Positions 6,502 through 25,153 of a stretch of DNA of 64,000 bases are shown in pieces. The notes below the pieces were generated by a model, which made no database searches, had not been told where the DNA came from, and saw only the letters and a program-made list of their open reading frames with translations. Origin of the DNA: Pontiella desulfatans (lineage in GTDB: Bacteria; Verrucomicrobiota; Kiritimatiellia; Kiritimatiellales; Pontiellaceae); assembly GCF_900890425.1 (NCBI RefSeq), contig NZ_CAAHFG010000001.1:992001-1056000 (forward strand), read 5' to 3'. How positions within the stretch are numbered: position 1 is the stretch's first letter; each line of letters begins with the position of its first letter. The position numbers and the translations under genes were made by a program.

Positions 6502-7895
6502 CCCATTTCATTGTCATCCCATAGATATTGAAAAAAAAGGCTGGCATGTGCCGTTGAAATCCTCCACTCGGAGGGTATGAAAAAACAACATAAACACAAG
6601 CCAGCCGGACATAGGTATACAACCTTGAAACAATTGTGCAATCTGATTCCCGGACACATGGTGTCGAGCCTTGCGCAGAAGCATGGCGTGGACATTCAAA
6701 GCCGGACGTACACGCCGTGGAGCCATGTGGTTTCTTTGCTGTACGCCCACTTCTCCCATGCACTCGGACTCAACGATGTGTGCGACGCGCTCCAGATGAA
6801 CGCGGCGGCGCTCTCTACCATCCGCGGCGCGGTTCCTCCGTCGCGTAACAACCTGAGCCACGCGAACAAGATCCGCAACGCGGACATGGCCGAAGAGCTC
6901 TACTGGTGCATGATGAAGCATCTGATGGATACAGTCCCGGGCTTCGCGAAGGGCAAGGTTCGGCGCGGATACCTCCGGCGCTTCAGCAAGACGATCCATG
7001 CGCTGGACTCGACCACGATCCAGCTCGTCGCCAACTGCATGGACTGGGCGAAGCATCGCCGCCGCAAGGCTGCGGCCAAGTGCCACCTGCGCCTCGACCT
7101 GCAAAGCTTCCTGCCCCGGTGCGCCATCATCGACACGGCGAAGCACCATGACAGCACGATGACCCAAAGCCTGTGCGCCGAGCTCAAACCCGGTGAAATC
7201 GCCGTGTTCGACAAGGCCTACAACAAGTTCAAGCATCTTTTCGAGCTGACGGTGCGCGGTGTCTGGTGGGTTGGCCGGGCGAAGGACAACATGCAGTACA
7301 AGGTGGTGCGCACCCTCGAAACCACCGGGCACAAGCGCATCCTGCGCGACGAGGTCATCGAGATGGTGGTCGAAGCATCGAAGAAAGCCTATCCGTGCGA
7401 GTTGCGCCGGGTCGTGGCGCTGGTCGAGATTAACGGCAAGGATGTCGAAATCGCCTTCATCACCAATCACCTGGAGTGGAGCGCGTGGACGGTCGCCGAA
7501 CTCTACCGTTGCCGCTGGGACATCGAGGTGTTCTTCAAGGAGATCAAGCAGACGCTCCAACTCTCCGACTTCCTGGGCTACAGCGCCAACGCCGTGCGCT
7601 GGCAGATCTGGATGGGGCTGCTGGTCCACCTGCTGATGCGCTGCCTCGCGTTCATGCACGGATGGGAGCACAGCTTCAAGCGGCAGTTCACTGTTGTGCG
7701 CGCGGTGCTTTGGCGCCGGTGGAACCTGCCCGCCTTGCTGGATTCCTATGGGACAGCCAAACCGCCCGGCCGCATACGGGGTGCGCCGGAACAGGCGTAT
7801 CTGCCGGGGTTTGTCTAAGAGCTGTGGGACAGCCATATGCACAAAGCGCGGAACCATGGTTAACCTTCAACAAAAAATCGGAATTGACTAAATGA
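6502..7895 (+). mobile_element. IS4-family insertion sequence (approximate ends)
   Basis: The element contains one transposase gene. Imperfect terminal inverted repeats are visible: the left end around 6502-6530 (CATTTCATTGTCATCCC) resembles the reverse complement of the right end around 7865-7895 (CATTTAGTCAATTCC), sharing the GTCA core at 6511-6514 and 7885-7888. I could not define a target-site duplication, so the ends are estimates. The element sits between decayed gene fragments and the first fucosidase. Confidence 0.6.
6577..7818 (+). CDS. IS4-family DDE transposase
   Basis: 413 residues. An N-terminal helix-rich DNA-binding region (about 1-110) precedes the DDE RNase-H-like core: first Asp in ALDSTTI, second in FDKAYNKF, and the IS4 signature Y-x2-R-x3-E-x6-K in YRCRWDIEVFFKEIK, which contains the catalytic Glu. 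All key residues are present and the frame is intact, so it may be active. Start ATG 6577 follows GGAGGGT at a good spacing. Codon use is GC-rich as in the neighbours. It is the only IS transposase I found in the window. Confidence 0.93.
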   Translation: MKKQHKHKPAGHRYTTLKQLCNLIPGHMVSSLAQKHGVDIQSRTYTPWSHVVSLLYAHFSHALGLNDVCDALQMNAAALSTIRGAVPPSRNNLSHANKIRNADMAEELYWCMMKHLMDTVPGFAKGKVRRGYLRRFSKTIHALDSTTIQLVANCMDWAKHRRRKAAAKCHLRLDLQSFLPRCAIIDTAKHHDSTMTQSLCAELKPGEIAVFDKAYNKFKHLFELTVRGVWWVGRAKDNMQYKVVRTLETTGHKRILRDEVIEMVVEASKKAYPCELRRVVALVEINGKDVEIAFITNHLEWSAWTVAELYRCRWDIEVFFKEIKQTLQLSDFLGYSANAVRWQIWMGLLVHLLMRCLAFMHGWEHSFKRQFTVVRAVLWRRWNLPALLDSYGTAKPPGRIRGAPEQAYLPGFV

Positions 7896-8159: not shown

Positions 8160-8177
8160 AGTGGGTAGGATATGGAA

Positions 8178-9680
8178 ATGAAGAACATGAAGCTTAAACG
8201 CGTTGCGTACGCGGCGATGATATTTTGGATGGGGACTTCGTGTGGGGCGCAGATTGAACCGACGTGGGAATCGCTGGCGGCGAACTATCGGGTGCCGGAC
8301 TGGTTTGTGGATGGTAAGCTCGGCGTCTGGTTCCACTGGGGCATCCCTTCTTCGATCGACGACGGCCGGCCGCATGATGGTTCGCACTATGGCGCGTGGA
8401 TGTATGGAACCGAGGGGCAACTGAGTGCCGCGAAGCACCCGGAGGCGGTGCAGAAGCTGACCGACTGGCACAACAACCACTACGGCCACTATTCCGAGTT
8501 TGGCTATGAGGATCTGATTCCGCGCTTCAAAGCCGAAAAGTGGGATCCCGATGCGTTGGTCAGGGAGGTCAAGGATGTCGGTGCAAAGTTTATTATGCCG
8601 GTCGCCTGCCACCATGATAACTTCGACATGTATGCTTCGTCCCATCCCTGGAACTCGGTGGACATGGGGCCCCGGCGCGATACGTTGAAGGAATGGAAAG
8701 CGGCCGCGCAGAAGGAAGGTTTGAAGTTCGGCGTCTCGACGCACCTGTATTGGTCTCCGCGCTTTTTTAACTCCGCGCGCAAGTGCCAGACCGAGGGAAC
8801 GCTGGAAGCAAAACTGTTCAATATGGAGTATCCGCCGAAGAATTATCACGCTTCCGATGCCTGGAACCAGCACTGGTACGACCGCTGTTGGGAAATCATC
8901 GAGAAATATGATCCGGACATGTTCAACAACGATTCGCCGTATCCAACCATCAAGGATGGAAACGGGCTGGGGCTTAAGCTGTTTACGGAGTTTGTGAAGA
9001 AGGATCAGGCGCAGAACGGCGGTAAGCAGGACTGCGTGCTCTCTTTCAAAAACCCGAACGAGAACAAGAAGGCCTTCACCTACAACATGGAACGCGGCAG
9101 CGCCGCCGAGATCGAGCCGGAGCCGTGGATGTGGGCGACCGACCTCTCGGGCACCTGGTTCTACCGCGACGGTGCGCGAAACCGCATGAGTATTCCCGTG
9201 ATGGTGGGGAACGCGATCGACTCGGTCAGCAAAAACGGCGTGATCATGCTGAACATTGCGCTAAAAGGCGACGGCTCGATTCCGGAGTATCAGATGGAAT
9301 ACCTGAATGCCTTCCGCAAGCTGATGAAGTTCAATGGCGAGGGCATCTACGGTTCCAGACCCTGGAAGGTTTTCGGCGAAGGCCCGTTGGTTATCAAGGA
9401 CGGGCGCGGCAGCGAAAACTTGAAGCCGTGGTGCCCGCAGGATATCCGCTTCACCACCAAGGGGGGCTCGCTCTATGCCTTTGTGCTGGCCGTGCCGACC
9501 GAGGATATCGTGATCAAGACGCTGAGGAAGGACGGGATCTACGAGGGCTCTATCGAAAAAATCAAGATGCTTGGAAGCAAGGAGCCCATCCAGTGGAAGC
9601 GTTCTGCCGATGGATTGATCATCAAGCTACCCACGAAGCTGCCGGATTCGCCGGTCATCGGGTTCAGGATTTCCGACTGA
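8178..9680 (+). CDS. GH29 alpha-L-fucosidase
   Basis: 500 residues from ATG 8178, preferred over ATG 8172 because the AGGA site at 8167-8170 is then seven bases away. N-terminal signal (KRVAYAAMIFWMGTSC) may be Sec or lipoprotein type; the TSC site is not a perfect lipobox. GH29 features: WFVDGKLGVWFHWG near the start, ACHHDNFDMY (the HHD motif), and YDPDMFNNDSPYP, in which Asp252 aligns with the GH29 nucleophile (the usual form is WND or WFD). The C-terminal ~130 residues are a beta-sandwich typical of the family. It should hydrolyse terminal alpha-L-fucosyl residues outside the cytoplasm. It begins a run of same-strand genes to 15382. Confidence 0.9.
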   Translation: MKNMKLKRVAYAAMIFWMGTSCGAQIEPTWESLAANYRVPDWFVDGKLGVWFHWGIPSSIDDGRPHDGSHYGAWMYGTEGQLSAAKHPEAVQKLTDWHNNHYGHYSEFGYEDLIPRFKAEKWDPDALVREVKDVGAKFIMPVACHHDNFDMYASSHPWNSVDMGPRRDTLKEWKAAAQKEGLKFGVSTHLYWSPRFFNSARKCQTEGTLEAKLFNMEYPPKNYHASDAWNQHWYDRCWEIIEKYDPDMFNNDSPYPTIKDGNGLGLKLFTEFVKKDQAQNGGKQDCVLSFKNPNENKKAFTYNMERGSAAEIEPEPWMWATDLSGTWFYRDGARNRMSIPVMVGNAIDSVSKNGVIMLNIALKGDGSIPEYQMEYLNAFRKLMKFNGEGIYGSRPWKVFGEGPLVIKDGRGSENLKPWCPQDIRFTTKGGSLYAFVLAVPTEDIVIKTLRKDGIYEGSIEKIKMLGSKEPIQWKRSADGLIIKLPTKLPDSPVIGFRISD

Positions 9681-14273: not shown

Positions 14274-14338
14274 TCGTTCTTCCTGGAAAGGGTATGGGTT
14301 GGATGGGCAAGCGTGTATTGGAAATCAAAGGTAGGTTT

Positions 14339-15382
14339 ATGAAGAAAACAAAATTGATGTTGATGGTGTTCCCCGCTCTTCTGGTGGGGCTGTCCTCTGG
14401 AACGGCGCAGGCCATTGAGGAGTCGTCGTTCTCGAAGTCGCTTGTGCCGGGCGCGTTTATCTTGCCGTCGGACGAGGAGTCCTGGACGTGGGGGATGGCG
14501 CCGATGTACGACGAGGCCGGAAAGCTGCACATCTTTAATTCCGTTATTCCCAATTCCGGCCGATGGGTGGAAAACAGCAAGATCGTCCATTGGACCGCCG
14601 ATTCGGTTGAGGGCCCCTATACGCTGGTGGGCGATCTGTTTTCGAGCGATGACATCGGTTACCATAACCCGCAGATTTCAAAGGTGGGCGATACCTACGT
14701 CTTGGTTTACCTGTATAACAAGCATAACGATGAGAATGGTTCCATGCAGGAGGTCGGGATTGCCACGGCCACATCGTTGGATGGTCCCTGGAAGGAAAGC
14801 CCATTGAACCCGATCATTCCGGCTTCCGGCGAAATGAACGGCGCCACGATCAACCATGCTTCGAACCCGACGTTTGTTGCGGCACCCGATGGCACGTTCC
14901 GCATCTATTACAAATCGATGACGACCAAGCATCGGTTGCGGGAAATCTCGATGGCGGTCAGCGACACCCTTGAAGGCCCGTACAAGAACCATGAAGGAAA
15001 CCCGGTGATCAGCTATGCCGACCAGCAACTGGACATCGAAGATCCCTACGCGTTTTATTACAACGGAATGTACTACATGATCGTGGAGGATCGCCGGGGC
15101 GTGAAGGATATGCTCGAGGGCAATCCGCTGCCGGTGAACCACAGGAAGTCGGGCGGATTACGCCCCGGTCTCATCTATACCTCCAAGGATGGAATCGACT
15201 GGGGAATCCCGGAGGTCGGCTATTTGACCAACGAAATCTATTTTGGCGCACCACTGGCGCGTAGCGAACGCCCCAGTATCCTGTGGAAGGATGGTCAACC
15301 TGAATATCTCTTCCTGGCCTGCCACGATAAGGATCCAACCGCCGGATACTATCTGAAGATTAACAACTGGAAGGGGCGGTAG
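14339..15382 (+). CDS. Secreted five-bladed beta-propeller glycoside hydrolase (GH43/GH117-like)
   Basis: 347 residues from ATG 14339, chosen because AGGTAGG precedes it and the translation then begins with a clean signal peptide (MKKTKLMLMVFPALLVGLSS). The rest shows propeller-type repeats: SWTWGMAPMYDE, IGYHNPQISKVGDTYVL, INHASNPTFVAAPDGTFRIYY, DIEDPYAFYYNGMYYMI. The evenly spaced acidic positions (D/E at blade starts) fit a GH43/GH32/GH117-type active site, but I cannot assign a family or substrate. It is the last gene of the run beginning at 8178 and converges on the minus-strand esterase. Confidence 0.65.
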   Translation: MKKTKLMLMVFPALLVGLSSGTAQAIEESSFSKSLVPGAFILPSDEESWTWGMAPMYDEAGKLHIFNSVIPNSGRWVENSKIVHWTADSVEGPYTLVGDLFSSDDIGYHNPQISKVGDTYVLVYLYNKHNDENGSMQEVGIATATSLDGPWKESPLNPIIPASGEMNGATINHASNPTFVAAPDGTFRIYYKSMTTKHRLREISMAVSDTLEGPYKNHEGNPVISYADQQLDIEDPYAFYYNGMYYMIVEDRRGVKDMLEGNPLPVNHRKSGGLRPGLIYTSKDGIDWGIPEVGYLTNEIYFGAPLARSERPSILWKDGQPEYLFLACHDKDPTAGYYLKINNWKGR

Positions 15383-15417: not shown

Positions 15418-16362
15418 CTATTCCCGCATGGCCGCATTAATCGCCTTCTGGATTTCCGCATCCAGGGCCTTCGCCTTCGCTTCGGCTTCGGGAAGGGGGA
15501 GGGTTTTCTTTTTCATTACGCCGGGGTTGCCATGGCCAATGTCGTTGAGCAGGGCGCGGTCGTAGGCGAGTCGCTGCTCCTTAACGAGGCCGATGACCGT
15601 GTTCCATTGCGGGTCGGTGGCATGCGGGCTGGAGCCGGTCTCGAGCAGGTCGGAGCCGGTCTGGTAGCCCAACGCTTGCAGGAAGGCCTCGGCCATCAGC
15701 TCATGGCCGTAGGTGTTGGGATGGATGGGTTCCCTGGGGTAGCACTTTTCCATGAACTTTTCGATGGGCGGGCGGATGGAGAAGGCGCGGACGCCGTTCT
15801 TGCCGTTGAGCGTCATGATCCATTCGCCATACTTCGCCAGCACCTCGTTGTAGTCGGAGGCCGGGTGTTTGAAGCCAAAGCTTTCGCCTTCGCCGGGCGG
15901 TGCCTTGGGCTTGATCCGTCCGGCAAAGGGCGGCGGGGTGAGCAGGATCACCTTTGCGCCGATCGCCTGCGCATCGGCAACGAGTTTGTTGATGCCGGTT
16001 TGGTAGGCCGCAAGGCGCTCGTTGGAGAACGGGTGGTAGATGGCGCAATTCATGCCGTAGCAGGCGATCACCACATCGGGGTTTGTCCGCTCCAGCACGC
16101 GGTCGAGCCGGGTGTGCAGATCGGGGCGGGGGAAGGGATGGTCCGGTTCCGAGAGTCCGGAAACCGTTTCGCTGCTTAGGCCGAGGTTGATGACCTCGGG
16201 GGCGTCGGCCTGGTTGAGCAGGAGCCAGGTTTCGATATGGTCGGTGTAGTGCCCGCCCTGGGTGATGCTGTCGCCCAGGAACAACCACCGTTCCTTTGCG
16301 GCAGCATTGAACGCGATGGCCAGGCATGCCAGGCAGAGTAGCGGCTTGATGTTTATCGTCAT
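15418..16362 (-). CDS. Secreted SGNH/GDSL-family hydrolase
   Basis: 314 residues from ATG at 16362, where a GGAGG site sits at ideal distance; the open frame extends further upstream but without one. Signal peptide MTINIKPLLCLACLAIAFNA. Block I WLFLGDSITQG (nucleophile Ser32), block II Gly in NLGLSSETV, block III YGMN, and HPNTYGHELMAEAFL with the catalytic His. Likely a carbohydrate acyl-esterase. It is transcribed divergently from the gene at 16457, sharing a ~95-base promoter region, and only 35 bases separate its end from the convergent propeller gene. A C-terminal ~80-residue helical extension follows the catalytic block. Confidence 0.82.
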   Translation of the reverse strand: MTINIKPLLCLACLAIAFNAAAKERWLFLGDSITQGGHYTDHIETWLLLNQADAPEVINLGLSSETVSGLSEPDHPFPRPDLHTRLDRVLERTNPDVVIACYGMNCAIYHPFSNERLAAYQTGINKLVADAQAIGAKVILLTPPPFAGRIKPKAPPGEGESFGFKHPASDYNEVLAKYGEWIMTLNGKNGVRAFSIRPPIEKFMEKCYPREPIHPNTYGHELMAEAFLQALGYQTGSDLLETGSSPHATDPQWNTVIGLVKEQRLAYDRALLNDIGHGNPGVMKKKTLPLPEAEAKAKALDAEIQKAINAAMRE

Positions 16363-16456: not shown

Positions 16457-17638
16457 ATGAAAAAATATGCATATCCATGTGTTTTGGTTTCCCTGATTTG
16501 CCAGGCGGGCATTGCGGCCACGGGCTACCCGGTCTTTTCGTGGGACACGGTGCCGGTGTACCTCCATTTCGGAAGCTCCACCCGCATGACCGATGGGCAG
16601 ATTGAAACGGCGGCGGGCATGTCGGACTTCATCTGCCTGGAAAAGGCGCATGGAACACGAACCGACCAGGCGCATCCGGAACGGATTGCCGCAGAGGATG
16701 CGCGACGGCTCAAGAAGGCCAACCCGGATGCCAAGGTGCTGATGTATTGGAACACGCTGATTGCTTGGCCGTTCGCGTCCTATAACCGCGACTTTGCCTC
16801 CACCCACCCCCAGGACTGGATCTTGCGGGATATGGGGACGGGCGAGCCGTTGTATAAAGTGGATCGACCCAATTTCCAGGTGGCCCAGTATAACCTGCTC
16901 AATCCCAAGGTGCGCGATTGGTGGGTGGACACCGTCAGTGGCGCGGTGAATGAATTCGGTTTCGACGGTCTCTTCATGGATGCCATTTCGCAATCCAAGC
17001 GTCCGCTTTGGCTCCGCAAGGGGTGGGGGATGGGTCGGGAGGACGAGCTGGATGCGGCGGCCATCGATTTGATGAAACGAACCAAGGCGAAGATGGGCTC
17101 CGGAAAAATGCTTATCTACAACGGCTTCCGCGCCCACGCGGCGAAGGCGGATGGCGGGGCGGCGGCCGGTACGGAGTTCTTGCCCTATGGCGACGGCGCC
17201 CAGATCGAGCACTTCGATGGACTCTCCTCGAAGAGCAAGGAGGATATCCTGCTCTACTGGCAGATGGCGGATGAAGCGGCGAAGGCCGGGAAGATCGTGC
17301 TTTACAAAGGTTGGCCGGACCACGACATCAATTGGTTGAATGCGGAGTTCATGAAAAAGAGCGCGGACGAGAAGGAGACGATTGCCCGGCGGAAGCTGGA
17401 ATATCCGTTGGCTCTCTACTTGATCGGCGCTCGGGAAAACAGTTATTTTTGTTATGGCTGGGGGTACGGCATTGATGATGGTCAGTTGGTTGACTATCCG
17501 GAATACCGCCGCCAGCTCGGTGCTCCGAAGGGGGATGCGATCCGCAAAGGATGGAAGTTTAAACGGGAATTCAAGCATGCCATCGTGGTGGTTGATCTCG
17601 AAACACGGGAAGGGAAAATCCAATGGTTGAAAAATTAA
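16457..17638 (+). CDS. Putative glycoside hydrolase (GHL15-like)
   Basis: 393 residues, signal peptide about 1-21 (MKKYAYPCVLVSLICQAGIA). The remainder looks like one TIM barrel: a YLHFGSS strand, DFICLEK, AKVLMYWNT, FGFDGLFMDAI (Asp170 and Asp175, plausible active-site or substrate residues), KMLIYNGF, and a final beta region ending FKHAIVVVDLETREG. This pattern is that of hypothetical glycosidases of the GHL15 group; no activity can be named. Its C-terminus is related to the first gene in the window. It overlaps the following sulfatase by one base (TAATG) if that gene starts at 17638, so the two are translationally coupled. Confidence 0.6.
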   Translation: MKKYAYPCVLVSLICQAGIAATGYPVFSWDTVPVYLHFGSSTRMTDGQIETAAGMSDFICLEKAHGTRTDQAHPERIAAEDARRLKKANPDAKVLMYWNTLIAWPFASYNRDFASTHPQDWILRDMGTGEPLYKVDRPNFQVAQYNLLNPKVRDWWVDTVSGAVNEFGFDGLFMDAISQSKRPLWLRKGWGMGREDELDAAAIDLMKRTKAKMGSGKMLIYNGFRAHAAKADGGAAAGTEFLPYGDGAQIEHFDGLSSKSKEDILLYWQMADEAAKAGKIVLYKGWPDHDINWLNAEFMKKSADEKETIARRKLEYPLALYLIGARENSYFCYGWGYGIDDGQLVDYPEYRRQLGAPKGDAIRKGWKFKREFKHAIVVVDLETREGKIQWLKN

Positions 17639-19020
17639 TGTGGCTTCGCACCGGTCTAAGGTCGAACGTCTGGTGTCTCTTGGGTCTGGTTGTGGCCATC
17701 GGTGCTGTTGCCAAGCCAGAGAAACCGAACCTGATCTTTATCTTCGCGGATGACTGGGGCTATGGCGATCTGGGGATCCATGGCAGTACGTTCTGCAAGA
17801 CGCCGCGGCTGGACCGGATGGCCAGCGAAGGCATCGACTTCCAAAACTTCACGGTCAATCATCCCGTCTGCTCGCCGAGCCGGACGGCGGTGATGACGGG
17901 GCAGTTTCCCGCGCGGCATTCGGTGCATCAGCATTTTGCCTCCACGGAGCATCACGTTAGGGCAGGCATGCCCGACTGGCTGGATCCGAAGGCACCGATG
18001 CTGCCGCGTATGCTCAAGGAGGCGGGCTACGCCACCGCCCACTTCGGCAAGTGGCACCTTTGCAACGACCATATTCCCGACGGGCCGATGCCGCCGGAAT
18101 ATGGCTACGATGAGTTTGGTGCGTTCAACCTTCCGAACGAAGCCCCGGAGCAAATGCCGACCGTTGCAACCTGCCCGCGTGCGGTCGACTTCATCAAACG
18201 CCACAAGGACCAGCCGTTCTTCATCAACCTCTGGCTGCACGAAACCCATACGCCGCACTATCCGCTGGAGAAATACCTGAGCCAGTTCGAAAGTCTGGAC
18301 GAGCAAAAGCAGGTCTATGCGGCCGTGGTGGCCGAGGGCGATGCCGGGGTCGGGCTCGTGCTCGACACCTTGAAGGAGCTCGGGCTGGATGAAAATACGC
18401 TGGTCGTCTTTTCCTCCGACAATGGCCCGGAATGGACGGGCTCGAAAAAGCAGACCGACGATACCTCCACGGGGCCGGGCCTCGGTTCGTATTATTCCGT
18501 TGGCGAAAAAGGCGAACTGAAGGGACAAAAGCGGTCGCTCTATGCCGGTGGTATCCGCGTGCCCTTCATCGCGCGCTGGCCCGGCGTGGTGCCGGTCGGA
18601 AAAACCGACCGCGATTCCGTGCTTACCGCCGTTGATCTGCTGCCCACCTTCATGGAGCTGGCCGGGGAGAAGCTGCCCAACGGCTATGAACCCGATGGCC
18701 AGAGCATGGTCTCCGCCCTGAAGGGGAAAGGTTTTGAACGTAGCAAGCCGATCTTCTGGGAATGGGCGCCGGCGCGGAACCATCCCGAAGTGTGGCCGCA
18801 CCAGGGGATCTGCGAGGGCAAGTGGAAGCTGCTCTACAATGAAAAACTCGGGAAGGCGGAGCTTTACAACCTGGAAGAAGATTGGGCGGAAGCCTCCGAT
18901 GTCTCGAAGGAGCATCCGGAAACCGTCGAAAAACTCACCCTTCAAATCAAGGCGTGGAAAAAGACGCTGCCCACCGAACCGCCAGCCGACTGTGTTTCCA
19001 GGCTCAGGAACCCTAAATGA
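17638..19020 (+). CDS. S1-family sulfatase (C-x-P-x-R)
   Basis: 460 residues from ATG 17638; ATG 17623 is an alternative that adds five residues. Signal peptide about 1-25. NLIFIFADDWGYGDLG provides the metal Asp pair, Cys78 in VCSPSRTAVMTG is the formylglycine site, and GKWHL and SSDNGPEW give other active-site residues. GGIRVPFIARWPG and the C-terminal subdomain are complete. It is a different subfamily from the sulfatase at 11649 (C-x-A-x-R), suggesting another sulfation position. Stop TGA overlaps the next start (ATGA), so GHL15-sulfatase-esterase form a tight three-gene unit. Confidence 0.93.
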   Translation: MWLRTGLRSNVWCLLGLVVAIGAVAKPEKPNLIFIFADDWGYGDLGIHGSTFCKTPRLDRMASEGIDFQNFTVNHPVCSPSRTAVMTGQFPARHSVHQHFASTEHHVRAGMPDWLDPKAPMLPRMLKEAGYATAHFGKWHLCNDHIPDGPMPPEYGYDEFGAFNLPNEAPEQMPTVATCPRAVDFIKRHKDQPFFINLWLHETHTPHYPLEKYLSQFESLDEQKQVYAAVVAEGDAGVGLVLDTLKELGLDENTLVVFSSDNGPEWTGSKKQTDDTSTGPGLGSYYSVGEKGELKGQKRSLYAGGIRVPFIARWPGVVPVGKTDRDSVLTAVDLLPTFMELAGEKLPNGYEPDGQSMVSALKGKGFERSKPIFWEWAPARNHPEVWPHQGICEGKWKLLYNEKLGKAELYNLEEDWAEASDVSKEHPETVEKLTLQIKAWKKTLPTEPPADCVSRLRNPK

Positions 19021-20297
19021 TTCGCAATACATCCGCGGAAGGGGGGCGCCGTAAAAATGCACTACGATGGAAGCTTCCTGGCGCCTTCTGCCTCTTGTGC
19101 ATTTTTTTGGCCATAAACATTTCGCAGGCTGCTCCTTCTGGGGATTTCCAAGAAGAATGCGGCGATGTGCTGGCGCTGGGAAAACTTGTGAAAGCTCCTG
19201 CAATGCAGGCGGCCGAGGGCTTCGAGGTTTCGGAAAACTTGAAGGCGGTCTTTTTCGATGCGCTCGATTGGAAGGGGCAACCCACCAAGGTTTTCGCCTG
19301 GTTGGGGCTTCCGGAAAAGCGCGACGGCAAGGTTCCGGGAATCGTGCTGGTGCACGGCGGCGGTGGAACGGCGTTCAAGGATTGGGTGAAGAAATGGAAC
19401 GACCAAGGCTTTGCCGCCATCTCGATTGCGGTGGAGGGGCAGATCGATGTGAAGGATCCGGATGCGACGGACCGGGGCAAGTCATGGAAACAGCATCGCT
19501 GGCCGGGGCCGCGGCGTTCCGGTATTTATGGCGACTCGGCCGAGCCGCTGAAAGACCAGTGGATGTATCACGCCGTGGCCGATACGGTCCTCGCCAATTC
19601 GCTGCTGCGCTCGTTGCCGGACGTGGATCCGGACCGGGTGGGGGTGATGGGCATTTCGTGGGGCGGGGTGATCACCAGTACGGTGATGGGGATCGACAGT
19701 CGCTTCGCCTTCGCCATTCCCACCTATGGGTGTGGAAACCTGTCGGCGGCTGAAAACCAGTATGGTCGGGCGCTGGGAAACAATGAGCTCTACAAGCAGG
19801 TGTGGGATCCGATCCTTCGCCTCGAAAAAGCAACAATGCCCGCCCTTTGGTTTTCGTGGCCCGGCGATCAGCATTTCCCGCTCGATAAGCAGGCCTCGTG
19901 TTATGAGGCCATGGCCGGAGATTATATGGTATCGCTGATTCCGGGCATGAAGCATGGCCATGGCGCCGGATGGAATCCACCGGACAGCTATGCCTTTGCC
20001 CGGGACGTCGTTGAATCGGGGGCTCCGTGGTGCCGACCAACCAACGCCCGGGTCAAGGATGGCTCGGCCATGGTTGCGTTTGCCTCCACCAAGGCCTTGG
20101 ATTGCGCCATGTTGGTTTCGACGTCCGATGCCGGGGTAACCGGCTCCCGCAACTGGGTGGAATCCCCGGCAACGCTGAAGCAATCCGGGAATTCGTGGAT
20201 GGCTTCCGCCCCCTTGCCATCCGGAACAACGGCATGGTTCATCAACGTCAAAAGCGGGCCGCTGACGGCCAGCTCGGATTTCAAGGCCATCCCCTGA
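19017..20297 (+). CDS. Secreted alpha/beta-hydrolase esterase, acetyl-xylan-esterase-like
   Basis: 426 residues, with an internal signal segment (FCLLCIFLAINISQA, about 24-40) after a cationic stretch. Oxyanion motif LVHGGGGTAFKDW, nucleophile elbow GISWGG (Ser214), and GMKHGHGAGW as catalytic His region. It is clearly a paralogue of the N-terminal half of the 1081-residue protein at 1384 (shared GGGGTAF.DWV, TYGCG, and FSWPGDQHFPLD/YSWPGDYHFPLD). It lacks the C-terminal modules of that protein and ends in a small beta domain. Four-base overlap with the sulfatase. Probably removes acyl groups during glycan breakdown. Confidence 0.8.
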   Translation: MIRNTSAEGGRRKNALRWKLPGAFCLLCIFLAINISQAAPSGDFQEECGDVLALGKLVKAPAMQAAEGFEVSENLKAVFFDALDWKGQPTKVFAWLGLPEKRDGKVPGIVLVHGGGGTAFKDWVKKWNDQGFAAISIAVEGQIDVKDPDATDRGKSWKQHRWPGPRRSGIYGDSAEPLKDQWMYHAVADTVLANSLLRSLPDVDPDRVGVMGISWGGVITSTVMGIDSRFAFAIPTYGCGNLSAAENQYGRALGNNELYKQVWDPILRLEKATMPALWFSWPGDQHFPLDKQASCYEAMAGDYMVSLIPGMKHGHGAGWNPPDSYAFARDVVESGAPWCRPTNARVKDGSAMVAFASTKALDCAMLVSTSDAGVTGSRNWVESPATLKQSGNSWMASAPLPSGTTAWFINVKSGPLTASSDFKAIP

Positions 20298-20404: not shown

Positions 20405-22330
20405 ATGGATAATTCAGGGAAGAAAACACCGGTGGTTCCGCCGGAACTGCTGTTGACGTTTGTTTTGGTAACGATCCTGTTCCCGCTGTGGGGGTTCGCC
20501 AACGACATCACGAACCCGATGGTGGCGGCGTTCAAGAACATCCTGCTGCTCTCCAACTTCGAGAGCTCGCTGGTGCAGGCGGCGTTCTACGGCGGCTATG
20601 CGCTCATGGCGATCCCGGCGGCGCTGTTCATCAAGAAGTTTTCCTATAAGAAGGGCGTTGTGCTCGGCCTGGCGCTCTACTCGTTCGCCTGCCTGATGTT
20701 CATTCCCAGCGGCCTGGCGATGTCGTACCCGCTGTTCCTGCTCTCCTACCTGATCATGACCAGCGGCCTCTCCTTCCTGGAAACCACCGCCAACCCCTAC
20801 ATCCTTTCGATGGGCGACGAAGCCACCGCCACACGCCGGCTCAACCTCGCCCAGGCGTTCAACCCGATGGGCTCGATCGTCGGCATGTTCGTGGCCAGCA
20901 TGTTCATCCTCGCCAGCCTCGACGGCACCAGCGAGACCGCCCGCCGCCAGATGGAGACGCTGGCCAAGGAAGGCACGCCCGTCCACCTGCAGGAACTTGC
21001 CGGACAGATCGGCACCGCCGACGCCCTGGCCGCGGTGGTCGCCACCGCCGACTGGCAGGACAGCAAGAAGCTCTACAAGAAGGCCGGGGAACTCTCGGCG
21101 TCGTTGAAAGACGGCACCTTCCTGCTCGACAACGCCAACGCCGCGCAGGCCGACGAGGTCGCCGCCGCCCTCGCCGCCCAGCCCAAGGGCAACAAGTTCA
21201 AGGCCGCCGCCGATGCCGTGGCCGTCGTGCTGCAGATCAAGGGCAAGCCCCAGCCGACCCCGGCCGAAGCCCAGCGCAACGATCTATTCGTCGGCGACCG
21301 CGGGCTGGAGCTGACGCTCGCGCTGAACCGGGAGCAGCCGCTGCTGGCCCAGGCCGGCGAGTGGGAAAACATCGACCAGCACTTCGCCGAGGCCGTTGCG
21401 CCCGCCGCCGGGCTCGCCGCCATGTTCGGCCCCGCCGCCACGGTGGACGCCGCCAAGGCCACCGCCCTCGTCGCCCAGGTCCGCCAGGAGCTCGCCGCCG
21501 CCCAGGGTGCGCTCGAAGGCATCCCGACCGACGGGCTCAAGGACTATTTCGCCGCCGCCGGCACCGGCCTCTCCACCATCCAGAAGGCCGACCTCGGCAT
21601 CGTCTCCACGCCGTATGCGCTGATGGGCGGCTTCCTGATCCTCGTCGTGGCGCTCTTCGCCTGGAAACTGCCGGCCAAGACCCAGGGCGAACACGAGGAC
21701 GACCAGGGCGGCATGGACGTCGGCGGCACCGTCAAGCGCCTCTTCAAGAACGCCACCTACATCGAAGGCGTCGTTGCGCAGACCTTCTACGTCGGCGCGC
21801 AGATCATGTGCTGGACGTTCATCGTGCAATACGGCTCGATGGAGCTCGGCCTCTCCAAGGCCACCGCGCAGAACTGCAACATCCTCGCGATGGTCATCTT
21901 CGTCTCCAGCCGCTTCGTCTGCACCTTCCTGATGCACTACATCAGCTCCGGCGCGCTGCTCACCATCCTCGCCTCCGGCGCGATCCTGCTGACCACCGGC
22001 ACGATCTTCGTGGAAGGCTACGCCGGGCTCTACTGCCTGATCGGCGTCAGCGCCTGCATGTCGCTGATGTTCCCGACCATCTACGGCATCGCGCTCGACG
22101 GCCTCGGCGACGACGCCAAGCTCGGCTCCGCCGGGCTGATCCTCGCCATCGGCGGCGGCTGCATCATGACGCCGCTGCAAGGGCGCATCATCGACCTGCC
22201 GGCGATCGACCTCGGGTTCATGGAGCTCGCCAGCGTGCGCGCGTCGTTCGCGCTGCCTTTGATCTGCTTCGTCGTGATCGCCCTCTACGGCTGGCGCACC
22301 TTCAGCATCCACCACAAGAAAGAAAGTTAG
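20405..22330 (+). CDS. FucP-like MFS sugar:H+ symporter with large periplasmic insertion
   Basis: 641 residues; FucP-type permeases are usually ~430. The N-terminal helices carry family motifs: LFPLWGFANDITNPM, FYGGYALMAIPAA, GLSFLETTANPY, RRLNLAQAFNPMGS. The C-terminal half resumes at STPYALMGGFLILVVALFAW and continues with the usual helices to QGRIIDL and the end. Between them, residues about 172-398 are an extra Ala-rich, largely helical, GC-rich segment that falls in the TM5-TM6 loop, predicted periplasmic. The frame is intact through it. Function inferred: import of L-fucose or a related sugar released by the neighbouring fucosidases. The start has an AAGGAGA ribosome site. Confidence 0.85.
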   Translation: MDNSGKKTPVVPPELLLTFVLVTILFPLWGFANDITNPMVAAFKNILLLSNFESSLVQAAFYGGYALMAIPAALFIKKFSYKKGVVLGLALYSFACLMFIPSGLAMSYPLFLLSYLIMTSGLSFLETTANPYILSMGDEATATRRLNLAQAFNPMGSIVGMFVASMFILASLDGTSETARRQMETLAKEGTPVHLQELAGQIGTADALAAVVATADWQDSKKLYKKAGELSASLKDGTFLLDNANAAQADEVAAALAAQPKGNKFKAAADAVAVVLQIKGKPQPTPAEAQRNDLFVGDRGLELTLALNREQPLLAQAGEWENIDQHFAEAVAPAAGLAAMFGPAATVDAAKATALVAQVRQELAAAQGALEGIPTDGLKDYFAAAGTGLSTIQKADLGIVSTPYALMGGFLILVVALFAWKLPAKTQGEHEDDQGGMDVGGTVKRLFKNATYIEGVVAQTFYVGAQIMCWTFIVQYGSMELGLSKATAQNCNILAMVIFVSSRFVCTFLMHYISSGALLTILASGAILLTTGTIFVEGYAGLYCLIGVSACMSLMFPTIYGIALDGLGDDAKLGSAGLILAIGGGCIMTPLQGRIIDLPAIDLGFMELASVRASFALPLICFVVIALYGWRTFSIHHKKES

Positions 22331-22424: not shown

Positions 22425-24215
22425 ATGGGTAACTCGATGAGGTTGAATATGAAAAGCAAAGTAATCGTGGCAATTATGGGAGCCTTGCTGCTGCAAGGTA
22501 TCGCCGCCGAGCAGGGCATGAATGAAATGTGGGGAGAAAGCACCGTCAAGCTCCGTGCCGAAAATGCCGAACGGGGGCAGCTTTTCAACGATGGCAACTA
22601 TGCCATGTTCATCCATTGGGGCCTCTATTCCCAGCTCGGCAACCAGGTGGGGGATAAAACCTACTACGGCATTGGCGAGTGGATCATGAATCCGCGTATG
22701 GCCGGCATCCCCGTGGCCGAATACAGGAAGCTGGCGGGAACCTTCAACCCGCAGCAGTTCGATGCCAAGTTCATTGCCAAGCTGGCGAAGGATGCCGGGA
22801 TGAAATACATCATCATCACCAGCAAGCACCACGACGGCTTCGCGATGTACGATTCCAAGGCCTGCGATTTCAACATCACCAAAACCACGCCGTGGGCAAA
22901 GGACCCGATGCACGAACTCGCCGCCGCCTGCCGGGCGGAAGGCCTCGGCTTCGGCTTCTACTATTCCCACAACCAGGACTGGACCTTCCCGGGCGGCAAT
23001 GGTGGCCCGAAGGTCGATGCGGATGGGAAATCGGCGACGTTCGATGACTACTTCGTGAAAAAATGCTTGCCGCAGGTCGAGGAGATCACCAGCAACTATG
23101 GGCCGATCGAGCTGGTCTGGTTCGATACGCCCGGCAAGATGCCCAAGGAATATGTGCAGCAGCTCGTCGATGTGGTTCGCAAGAACCAGCCCAACGCGCT
23201 CGTTTCCGGCCGTGCCGGACATGGCTTGGGCGACTACCAGTCGCTCGGCGACATGGAAGTGCCGCACAAGAACGTGAAGGGCATGTGGGAAGCGGTCGAC
23301 ACCACCAACGATTCGTGGGCCTATGCCTGGTACGACGAATATTGGAAAACCCCCAAGGAAATCCTGCGCCGCCTCATCGCCTGCGTCGGCCGCGGCGGAA
23401 CCTACATGCTCAATATCGGCCCCCGGGGCGACGGTTCCGTGCCGGAGCGCGCCGCCCGCGCCCTGCGCGAATCCGGCGAATGGATCCGTTCCTACCCGCA
23501 GGTGGTGTATGCCACGGAAGCATCGCCGTGGGAGCACGCGCTTCCGTGGGGCGATGTCACCGTCAAGGGCAACAAGCTTTACCTTTCCGTCTTCGACTGG
23601 CCGGCCTCCGGCAAGCTCCACCTGCCGGGCCTCAAAACCCCAATCACTTCCGCCAAGCTACTGAAGGGCAATGAAGGGGAGACGGTTAAATTTTCATCCG
23701 CTAATGGCTGGACGATTTTCGAACTTCCGCCGGTTGCTCCGGAAAAGCTGGTGTCGGTCCTCGAAGTGGATCTGGCCGGTGCGCCGGAAGTGGATCCGAC
23801 CTTCGGTCTCGATCCGGAAATGGAAACGGAAGTCCTTGCCGAATTCAGCACTGTGGAGGGCGCTGATCTTTCCCATAAACGCTGGATGGAAAAATTCGGG
23901 GAGTGGAAAGCGGTGATGCATGCCCACAACTGGACTGCGGATGGAAAGGCGATGTTCGAAATCAATGTGCTCAAGCCGGGCGACTACAACGTTAGCCTGA
24001 CCTATGCCGGCGAGGGGCGCCTGGTCTGGGGCGTGGATGTCGTGGGGGGCGAGCATATCCAGAACCAGCAGAATTCTTCGCACAACTACCAGAAATTCCC
24101 GATCGGATGGATGAACTTTCCGAAGCCTGGGAAATACAAGGTTACCGTCTCTTGCCTGGAAGGCGACTTCAAAACCTCCAGCCTGAAGGGCATCCACTTT
24201 ATGTCCGTCCAGTAA
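22425..24215 (+). CDS. GH29 alpha-L-fucosidase with C-terminal beta domain
   Basis: 596 residues. TAGGA precedes ATG 22425; a signal segment KVIVAIMGALLLQGIAA follows after twelve residues, so ATG 22449 is an alternative start. The barrel contains YAMFIHWGLYSQ, KHHDGFAMYDS, YYSHNQDW, and nucleophile Asp234 in LVWFDTPG; GGTYMLNIGPRGDG closes it. Residues about 470-596 form an extra beta-sandwich (EINVLKPGDYNVSLTYAGEG) like the domain placed N-terminally in the fucosidase at 9796. Third GH29 in the locus and the only one directly next to the FucP-like permease. Confidence 0.93.
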   Translation: MGNSMRLNMKSKVIVAIMGALLLQGIAAEQGMNEMWGESTVKLRAENAERGQLFNDGNYAMFIHWGLYSQLGNQVGDKTYYGIGEWIMNPRMAGIPVAEYRKLAGTFNPQQFDAKFIAKLAKDAGMKYIIITSKHHDGFAMYDSKACDFNITKTTPWAKDPMHELAAACRAEGLGFGFYYSHNQDWTFPGGNGGPKVDADGKSATFDDYFVKKCLPQVEEITSNYGPIELVWFDTPGKMPKEYVQQLVDVVRKNQPNALVSGRAGHGLGDYQSLGDMEVPHKNVKGMWEAVDTTNDSWAYAWYDEYWKTPKEILRRLIACVGRGGTYMLNIGPRGDGSVPERAARALRESGEWIRSYPQVVYATEASPWEHALPWGDVTVKGNKLYLSVFDWPASGKLHLPGLKTPITSAKLLKGNEGETVKFSSANGWTIFELPPVAPEKLVSVLEVDLAGAPEVDPTFGLDPEMETEVLAEFSTVEGADLSHKRWMEKFGEWKAVMHAHNWTADGKAMFEINVLKPGDYNVSLTYAGEGRLVWGVDVVGGEHIQNQQNSSHNYQKFPIGWMNFPKPGKYKVTVSCLEGDFKTSSLKGIHFMSVQ

Positions 24216-24286: not shown

Positions 24287-25153
24287 ATGAAGCATGGGAA
24301 GATCGCCGCTATAATCACGTTATGTGTTTGGTCTGCCGTTTGCGTTGCCGAACCGGGGACGCCACTCAGTGAGCCGGTCATCAAGAAATGGACTGAGCCC
24401 GGGGAAAAGGGGAAGACGGTCGAGTTCATGACCATCGACGGTGTGATGGTGCATGAAACCGATGAGGCCAAACAACCCCAACCGCCGATTGTGGTTCCCG
24501 GCACGGCGAGCTGCGGGGAAAAGGTCGGCACGGCGCCGTCGGACGCCATCGTTTTATTTGACGGAACTCCGGAGTCGCTGGAAAATTGGACGGACACCAA
24601 GGGGAACAAGACCAAATGGGTGTTCGTTGACGGCGCCTTGGAGTCGGTGAAAAAAGCCGGGTATATCCAAACCAAGGAAAAATTTGGCTCCTGCCAGCTG
24701 CATGTCGAATGGGCTTCGCCGTCAACGGTCAAGGGCAGTGGGCAGGGGCGCGGCAACAGCGGGGTTTTCCTGATGGGAACCTACGAGGTGCAGGTGCTGG
24801 ATTGCTACGATAACAAAACCTATCCGGATGGGCAGGCGGCGGCGCTGTATGGGCGGAAAAAGCCTTTGGTGAATGCCTCGCGCAAGCCCGGCGAGTGGCA
24901 GACCTACGACATTGTTTTCCACCGTCCGATCTTCGATGGATCCGGAAACGTGCTCCGGAAAGCGACCTTTACCGTTTTGCATAACGGGGTGCTGGTTCAG
25001 GATCATGTATTCCTGTCGGGCGGCACGGGCTGGAAAGGGGCGCATTCGGCCTCCGATTACCAGGCGCACGCCGACGCGCTTCCGATTTCGCTGCAGGATC
25101 ACGGAAACCCCGTTCGCTATCGGAACATCTGGGTCAGGCCGCTGGCGGATTAA
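24287..25153 (+). CDS. Secreted DUF1080 (3-keto-disaccharide hydrolase-like) protein
   Basis: 288 residues, signal peptide about 1-22 (ending CVA). Residues about 88-288 form the DUF1080 concanavalin-like jelly roll: IVLFDGTPESLENW, WVFVDGALESV, GNSGVFLMGTYEVQVLD, GEWQTYDIVFHRP, and terminal PVRYRNIWVRPL. The family includes 3-keto-glycoside hydrolases and binding proteins and is very common in PVC polysaccharide loci. The ~60 residues before the domain are Pro/Lys-rich and look like a linker. CAGGAGAA site at good spacing. It converges on a second, divergent DUF1080 gene, with a strong hairpin between. Confidence 0.87.
   Translation: MKHGKIAAIITLCVWSAVCVAEPGTPLSEPVIKKWTEPGEKGKTVEFMTIDGVMVHETDEAKQPQPPIVVPGTASCGEKVGTAPSDAIVLFDGTPESLENWTDTKGNKTKWVFVDGALESVKKAGYIQTKEKFGSCQLHVEWASPSTVKGSGQGRGNSGVFLMGTYEVQVLDCYDNKTYPDGQAAALYGRKKPLVNASRKPGEWQTYDIVFHRPIFDGSGNVLRKATFTVLHNGVLVQDHVFLSGGTGWKGAHSASDYQAHADALPISLQDHGNPVRYRNIWVRPLAD

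Follow-up and report, generated by a model that had tools for sequence, protein, structure and literature searches.

A probable fucan locus of Pontiella desulfatans

We analysed a stretch of 64,000 nucleotides of the Pontiella desulfatans genome (contig NZ_CAAHFG010000001.1, positions 992,001 to 1,056,000 of the forward strand), hereafter called the window, in which an intact GHL15 gene is followed closely by genes for a sulfatase, an esterase, a symporter and a fucosidase. The features on which the analysis rests are as follows.

15418..16362, minus strand: SGNH hydrolase (PF13472, 61.7 bits), divergent from the GH168 gene, with 94 bases between the likely ATGs
16457..17638, plus strand: probable GH168 (Pfam GHL15) fucanase gene, intact open reading frame of 393 aa with ATG start
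16979..16981, plus strand: codon of Asp175 (FunA D206, MeGH168 D167), proposed nucleophile, D in 90 of 90 rows
17207..17209, plus strand: codon of Glu251 (FunA E264, MeGH168 E237), proposed acid/base, E in 84 and D in 6 of 90 rows
17607..17615, plus strand: ribosome-binding-site-like GGGAAGGGA, its last G 8 bases from the ATG at 17623
17623..19020 (alternative start 17638), plus strand: S1-type sulfatase (Pfam Sulfatase, 183.5 bits)
19017..20297, plus strand: AXE1-like esterase (AXE1 45 bits, cut-off 21)
20405..22330, plus strand: FucP-type L-fucose:H+ symporter (TIGR00885, 481.1 bits, cut-off 280.4)
22425..24215, plus strand: GH29 alpha-L-fucosidase, here GH29c (PF01120, 239.2 bits; best solved match 9rzx, 765.8 bits)
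24287-25153, downstream of GH29c: 3-keto-disaccharide hydrolase

Beyond the esterase the genes are spaced by 107 bases (esterase to FucP), 94 bases (FucP to GH29c) and 71 bases (GH29c to the 3-keto-disaccharide hydrolase), and the region upstream of the GH168 gene holds a second sulfatase, a BD-FAE-type esterase, two further GH29 genes and a weak match to GH43 that stays under the cut-off. With three GH29s, FucP and two sulfatases among the neighbours of GH168, the locus is centred on fucose.

The sulfatase carries the C-x-P-x-R formylglycine motif as CSPSR, which does not vary across 15 rows (residues 78-82 when numbering starts at 17638). Among solved chains it comes closest to a kappa-carrageenan sulfatase of S1_16 (200.8 bits), with 7stt level at 199.9 bits. 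The model of the esterase, built from an alignment in which one row is a much longer window protein, superimposes on cephalosporin C deacetylase 1l7a with Z 26.2 and 16% identity over residues 43-334, leaving about 90 C-terminal residues outside, and a candidate triad of the CE7 kind, Ser214, Asp284 and His313, is invariant in the 15 rows of the alignment. Relatives of the SGNH hydrolase (77% and 69% identical) are found about 8 kb upstream of a sulfatase-esterase-GH29c row in two other loci (L096 and L097).

Three further features of the region deserve mention. The FucP protein has 641 aa against a model length of 410, and because the model matches it in two stretches, it seems to carry an insertion of about 200 residues (roughly 185-390); its gene also stands out in composition (GC 0.657, third-position GC 0.928). 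The fucan locus also contains a DDE transposase (PF01609 with DUF4372), at window 6577-7818. A GH43/GH117-like protein at 14294-15382 has weak database matches only, and relatives of it (67-70%) occur near other GH168 genes in two genomes of the same genus (L104 17089-18117 and L105 1279-2343).

GHL15 and the GH168 family

The original prediction described the product of 16457-17638 as a TIM-barrel-like GHL15 glycosidase from a family without established activity. Its first half is borne out by a profile search, in which the protein scores 137.4 bits against Pfam GHL15 (PF14885; cut-off 27, E 1.2e-39) and which turned up no known non-enzymatic family; GHL15 is likewise matched by all 14 rows in an alignment of its relatives, and NCBIfam has no model for the protein. 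The second half does not survive. Fun168A, the endo-1,3-fucanase that founded GH168, scores 161.8 bits on the same Pfam model, the PDB labels MeGH168 a GHL15 protein, and the paper on MeGH168 places it in GH168, so that GHL15 is the present-day, enzymatic GH168 fucanase family. The GHL families other than GHL1 were termed uncharacterised as of 2017 in a paper on Cwp19, which treats GHL10.

The best solved match has an E-value of 2.5e-188 (phmmer), which excludes chance. Ten solved sequences match within residues 21-392 at E 2e-36 or below, and all can be traced to GH168 enzymes through their name, title or paper, apart from 9f9v and 8rg3/8rg5, which bear titles that mention no family; the E-values are 2.1e-64 for Fun168A, 1.6e-70 for Fun168E and 1.3e-36 for Fun168D, and the identities are 70% to 9f9v (371 residues), 41% to 8rg3, 40% to MeGH168 and 37% to Fun168E. 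Among the 13 phmmer matches no chain is named GH107, GH174 or GH187, which is no proof of absence. The product is most likely a member of the known GH168 family and not a new enzyme family, and the claim of novelty falls, since GHL15 is GH168 and a protein 70% identical has already been solved.

An AlphaFold2 model built from the 14-row alignment (mean pLDDT 89.1) predicts strands and helices that alternate as in a TIM barrel, followed by a group of strands at the C-terminus, in agreement with the GH168 architecture of a TIM barrel plus a C-terminal antiparallel beta-sheet. It superimposes on solved GH168 chains with Z 40-55, the closest being 9f9v (Z 55.4, rmsd 1.3, 361 residues), and on the fucotetraose complexes of Fun168E and Fun168A with Z 48.0 and 42.7. 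The fold also bears on the possibility that the protein is a TIM-barrel glycosidase of the GH191/GH114/PelA kind, an alpha-1,4-galactosaminidase and not a fucanase. The PDB names some GH168s 'GH114 TIM-barrel', and GH191 and PelA chains align with the model at Z 19-21, but these matches share only 10-15% identity (10-13% for GH191) and lie far below the GH168 range: after 14 GH168 entries Z drops to 21 at the first non-GH168 entry, a GH191. Given also that phmmer, run to E 10, has no GH191 chain in its 13 matches and that the locus is built around fucose, we regard a galactosaminidase as barely credible.

We consider it very probable that gene 16457-17638 encodes a GH168 fucanase, probably secreted, which would hydrolyse alpha-L-fucosidic bonds inside sulfated seaweed fucan by a retaining mechanism. 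Its N-terminus resembles a signal peptide by eye, suggesting export, and fucanase activity with an endo mode would be expected by analogy with its characterised relatives, fucanase activity having been reported for FunA, FWf5 and five further homologues. In the founding paper of the family, 5 of 13 soluble FunA homologues cut the tested fucan and 8 did not, so membership in GH168 alone does not give the substrate. For the linkage, alpha-1,3 would be somewhat more likely than alpha-1,4.

Active site

FunA and Fun168A are one protein by accession, and the FunA mutants D206E and E264Q are reported to be inactive; both of these essential residues have their counterparts here, in Asp175 and Glu251. 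(Chain numbers were converted to those of the papers with offsets of 15 for Fun168A and 3 for MeGH168, both of which give the residues that the papers name.) In 9jp3, the closest crystallised mutant (D171A of the GH168 9jos, with fucotetraose), the alanine falls at the position of Asp175. Mutation of Asp170 and Asp175 had been proposed; the choice of Asp175 was sound, but Asp170 (D in 78 of the 90 aligned rows) aligns with FunA D201, which does not belong to the essential pair, and Glu251 should take its place. E81, K82, Y115, N117 and N234 of FWf5, which are among the highly conserved GH168 residues named in the FWf5 paper, correspond by motif and order to E62, K63, Y97, N99 and N222, all invariant in the 14 rows of relatives; FWf5 is an endo-1,4-fucanase and cuts alpha-1,4 bonds.

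In the positive subsites the protein parts from the family founder. In the 90-row alignment the residues of Fun168A at subsites +1 to +3 are replaced (R170 by K, Y266 by F, Q207 by A, Y132 by I, N267 by D and H209 by S), and these positions follow MeGH168 and Fun168E, not Fun168A, the residues that resemble MeGH168 being K134, R225, Q179 and F253.

Phylogeny and distribution

In a tree of 90 rows, which omits four loci with short matches (L013, L018, L032 and L037), the protein groups with those of four Pirellulaceae genomes (G405, G406, G407 and G564) and with 9f9v at a support of 100/99, forming what we call the window clade. Its sister is a 23-row clade of Fun168A and 9jos (100/94), with Fun168D and Fun168E/MeGH168 outside the pair. 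Fun168A (FunA, from Wenyingzhuangia fucanilytica) therefore shares family, fold and catalytic pair with the window protein and belongs to its sister clade, yet has different positive-subsite residues; MeGH168 (9nhf) and Fun168E (9jom) have the common subsite pattern and belong to another, well separated clade. With these two groups PbFucA (8rg3) of Planctomycetes bacterium K23_9, solved and identical to the G517 protein in the columns kept for the tree, and not with the window clade.

The closest known relative is 9f9v, released in 2025 under the title 'Crystal structure of 892_05174 from Planctomycetota strain 892', which has the same catalytic pair and differs in its planctomycete source, being 96.5% identical to a Rhodopirellula rubra protein. 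We found no activity report for 9f9v in the literature searched; it and PbFucA are presumably described in a 2024 paper on how Planctomycetota break down fucoidan.

Genomes were scanned in the taxonomic family of the host (29 genomes, E 1e-3), in its phylum (387, E 1e-40) and in the family of G405 (241, E 1e-60), and at these limits GH168 matches were found in 21 of the 387 phylum genomes and 28 of the 241 in the family of G405. Across the three scans full-length relatives above 60% identity occur only in the own genome and in G405, G406, G407 and G564; the next best full-length matches reach at most 44%, one 83-residue piece in G028 reaches 53%, and P. sulfatireligans has a piece of GH168 at 77%. 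As so far known, then, the window clade comprises Pontiella, four Pirellulaceae genomes and 9f9v, and because it is present in two phyla and yet not in the nearest relatives, its distribution suggests lateral transfer between them. The GC content of the gene (0.567, against 0.565 for the window) gives no compositional sign of transfer.

The own genome (8,658,305 bases in 6 contigs) is rich in the family, with 11 GH168 matches, two of them pieces of one frame, or 12 by profile, 11 of which exceed the cut-off. One further member reaches into the window: positions 24-1361, together with bases before the window, are the tail of a second GH168-containing gene, a 971-aa open frame 29% identical to the 16457 protein, and the 1081-aa protein after it opens with an esterase domain that shares 48% identity with the esterase of the coupled genes.

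Gene overlaps

The original prediction proposed translational coupling of GH168, sulfatase and esterase through a TAATG and an ATGA overlap. Both overlaps are present, the first formed by the GH168 TAA (17636-17638) and an ATG at 17638, the second at 19017-19020, and the coupling looks real, since overlaps recur in relatives, although with another start codon at the first junction. A second in-frame sulfatase ATG lies at 17623, 15 bases before 17638. Its equivalent and the purine-rich leader, with a run similar to that at 17607..17615, are kept in P. sulfatireligans (L013) and in the Pirellulaceae genome G564 (L092), where TAATG is absent (TAAGG and TAACA, respectively). For this reason a 16-base overlap at 17623-17638, read from the ATG at 17623, is the likelier arrangement. 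The ATGA overlap of sulfatase and esterase is kept in P. sulfatireligans and G020 (L097), both of the same genus, and in G019 (L096) the two genes are one base apart (TAGTATG). Promoter-like sites (3, against 3.5 in shuffles) and terminator-like sites (9, against 10.4) show no excess, so they do not fix the limits of an operon.

Overlaps of this kind might be mere compact spacing in a dense cluster, the sulfatase and the esterase serving other substrates. Sulfatases are so numerous in the own genome (751 first-look candidates) that some will adjoin a GH168 by chance, and among 116 GH168 places in 40 genomes the orthologous sulfatase lies within 500 bases in at least 4 and the orthologous esterase in 2. 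Against this, a Pirellulaceae genome has the same overlap, its sulfatase being 78-79% identical, as does P. sulfatireligans with its dead GH168 tail, and in G596 an unrelated pair, a different GH168 (36-41%) and its sulfatase (59-60%), overlaps by ATGA. We think incidental spacing unlikely, though it deserves some weight, and prefer the coupling.

Upstream coupling may also occur: in the R. rubra genome G405 (L093, near 9686) a GH29 gene 36% identical to GH29c seems to overlap the start of the GH168 reading frame by GTGA, on which account GH168 there may be coupled to that gene.

Which genes recur together

Gene associations were compared in 40 genomes chosen for having a GH168 match (hence 40 of 40 by construction), which leave out G234, G237, G259 and G298 of the 21 phylum genomes with matches and G414, G565, G566, G615, G617, G621 and G624 of the 28 matching genomes in the family of G405. 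The rows counted were 21 of 47 for the esterase (at least 55% identity), 24 of 81 for the sulfatase (at least 56%), 47 for GH29c and 116 for GH168, and for sulfatases the best 41 candidates per genome were scored.

The associations are partial over the 40 genomes. The window clade occupies six places, five intact and one a remnant. The orthologous sulfatase adjoins its GH168 in at least three of the six (the own genome, the P. sulfatireligans remnant and G564), the orthologous esterase lies within 5 kb in three (own, remnant and G406), G564 having it 6.6 kb away, and the places with GH29c inside 5 kb number four (own, remnant, G405 and G406); in G407 none of the three orthologues is near, among the matches listed. 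Seen from the 24 sulfatase places among the matches listed, GH168 is within 500 bases in 4, the esterase within 500 bases in 4 and GH29c within 5 kb in 10. Over the 116 GH168 places GH29c is within 5 kb in 11, a raw count, uncorrected for the clustering of such genes.

Two genomes, G019 (90, 69 and 79% identity) and G020 (83, 74 and 78%), have the sulfatase, esterase and GH29c one after another with no GH168 beside them, and esterase and GH29c stand together without it in G021 (68 and 78%); in Allomuricauda an esterase (35%), a GH29c (55%) and a GH168 (40%) stand in a row. The steadier set is sulfatase, esterase and GH29c (22425), with GH168 as a variable partner and not a fixed member. Since related genomes keep the three without this GH168, the GH168 likely cuts the chain while the others trim its ends, and consecutive action on one residue, as originally proposed for GH168, sulfatase and esterase, fits the sulfatase, the esterase and the GH29 fucosidase better than it fits GH168.

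The same observations weigh on another reading, in which GH168 is exo-acting or acts on short oligosaccharides, trimming the very terminal residue that the sulfatase and the esterase attack. Its tight coupling to both would suit such a role, as would its MeGH168-like subsites, for a hairpin at its positive subsites has led to the suggestion that MeGH168 is exo-acting; its authors, who did not determine its activity, leave exo action open. Fun168E, however, has the same subsite residues and is titled an endo-1,3-fucanase, and G019 and G020 have the row but not this GH168. An exo-acting GH168 thus appears improbable, and chain cutting remains our preferred role for it.

In three loci (L003, L026 and L028) a GH168 of a different clade is accompanied by another GH29 type, 61-64% identical to that at window 8172-9680, which would fit a pairing of every GH168 type with a particular fucosidase. 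In two Akkermansiaceae MAGs (L014 and L015) a GH168 (29%) is accompanied, about 2-4 kb away, by a sulfatase that shares 48% identity with the coupled one.

Proposed function

Sulfated, acylated fucans are tied to ocean carbon storage. In the scheme that we propose, GH168 would cleave alpha-L-fucosidic bonds inside sulfated fucan in two retaining steps, Asp175 serving as the nucleophile and Glu251 as the acid/base by analogy with FunA; the sulfatase and the esterase would remove sulfate and acyl groups at the new ends so made, GH29c would release fucose from the unmasked ends and FucP would import it, an order of action, and a location of the enzymes, that we infer. Stepwise action of exo-sulfatases (S1_17 and S1_25) and GH29/GH95 fucosidases on sulfated fuco-oligosaccharides has been described (PMC12786026), although for those two subfamilies, whereas the solved chain nearest to the coupled sulfatase is the S1_16 enzyme noted above, tied with 7stt. 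Pontiella desulfatans is reported to grow on fucoidan, and the main text of the paper that reports this growth does not name GH168 (0 occurrences).

More speculatively, and with the balance against the proposal as a whole, the window clade might have its own cleavage specificity for acylated and sulfated fucan and might be exchanged by Pontiella and planctomycetes, in part as a pair of GH168 and sulfatase genes with translational overlap, docking onto the conserved end-trimming set of sulfatase, esterase and GH29, with the overlap fixing the proportion of chain cutting and unmasking. What had been an unknown glycosidase becomes a testable candidate fucanase with named catalytic residues and a corrected choice of point mutants, and the sulfatase, esterase and GH29 set offers a defined enzyme mixture for the poorly understood unmasking of sulfated, acylated fucans.

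The remnant in P. sulfatireligans

The GH168 of P. sulfatireligans (L013 9540-10360) is a 124-codon reading frame that matches from about residue 267, the C-terminal third, and is without the equivalents of Asp175 and Glu251. Just upstream, on the other strand, lies a piece of a response regulator, and the missing part of GH168 was not found at similar identity elsewhere in the P. sulfatireligans genome. Almost the whole length is matched in its sulfatase (87%), esterase (76%) and GH29c (85%). A species whose GH168 has lost the catalytic part offers a natural comparison, pointing to fucans that P. desulfatans could attack and its sister could not. In G028, of the same genus, another GH168 (L104 11935-14596) is found in two pieces, residues 24-284 (34%) and 308-390 (52%), with about 1.7 kb between them, and may be a second copy that has been broken.
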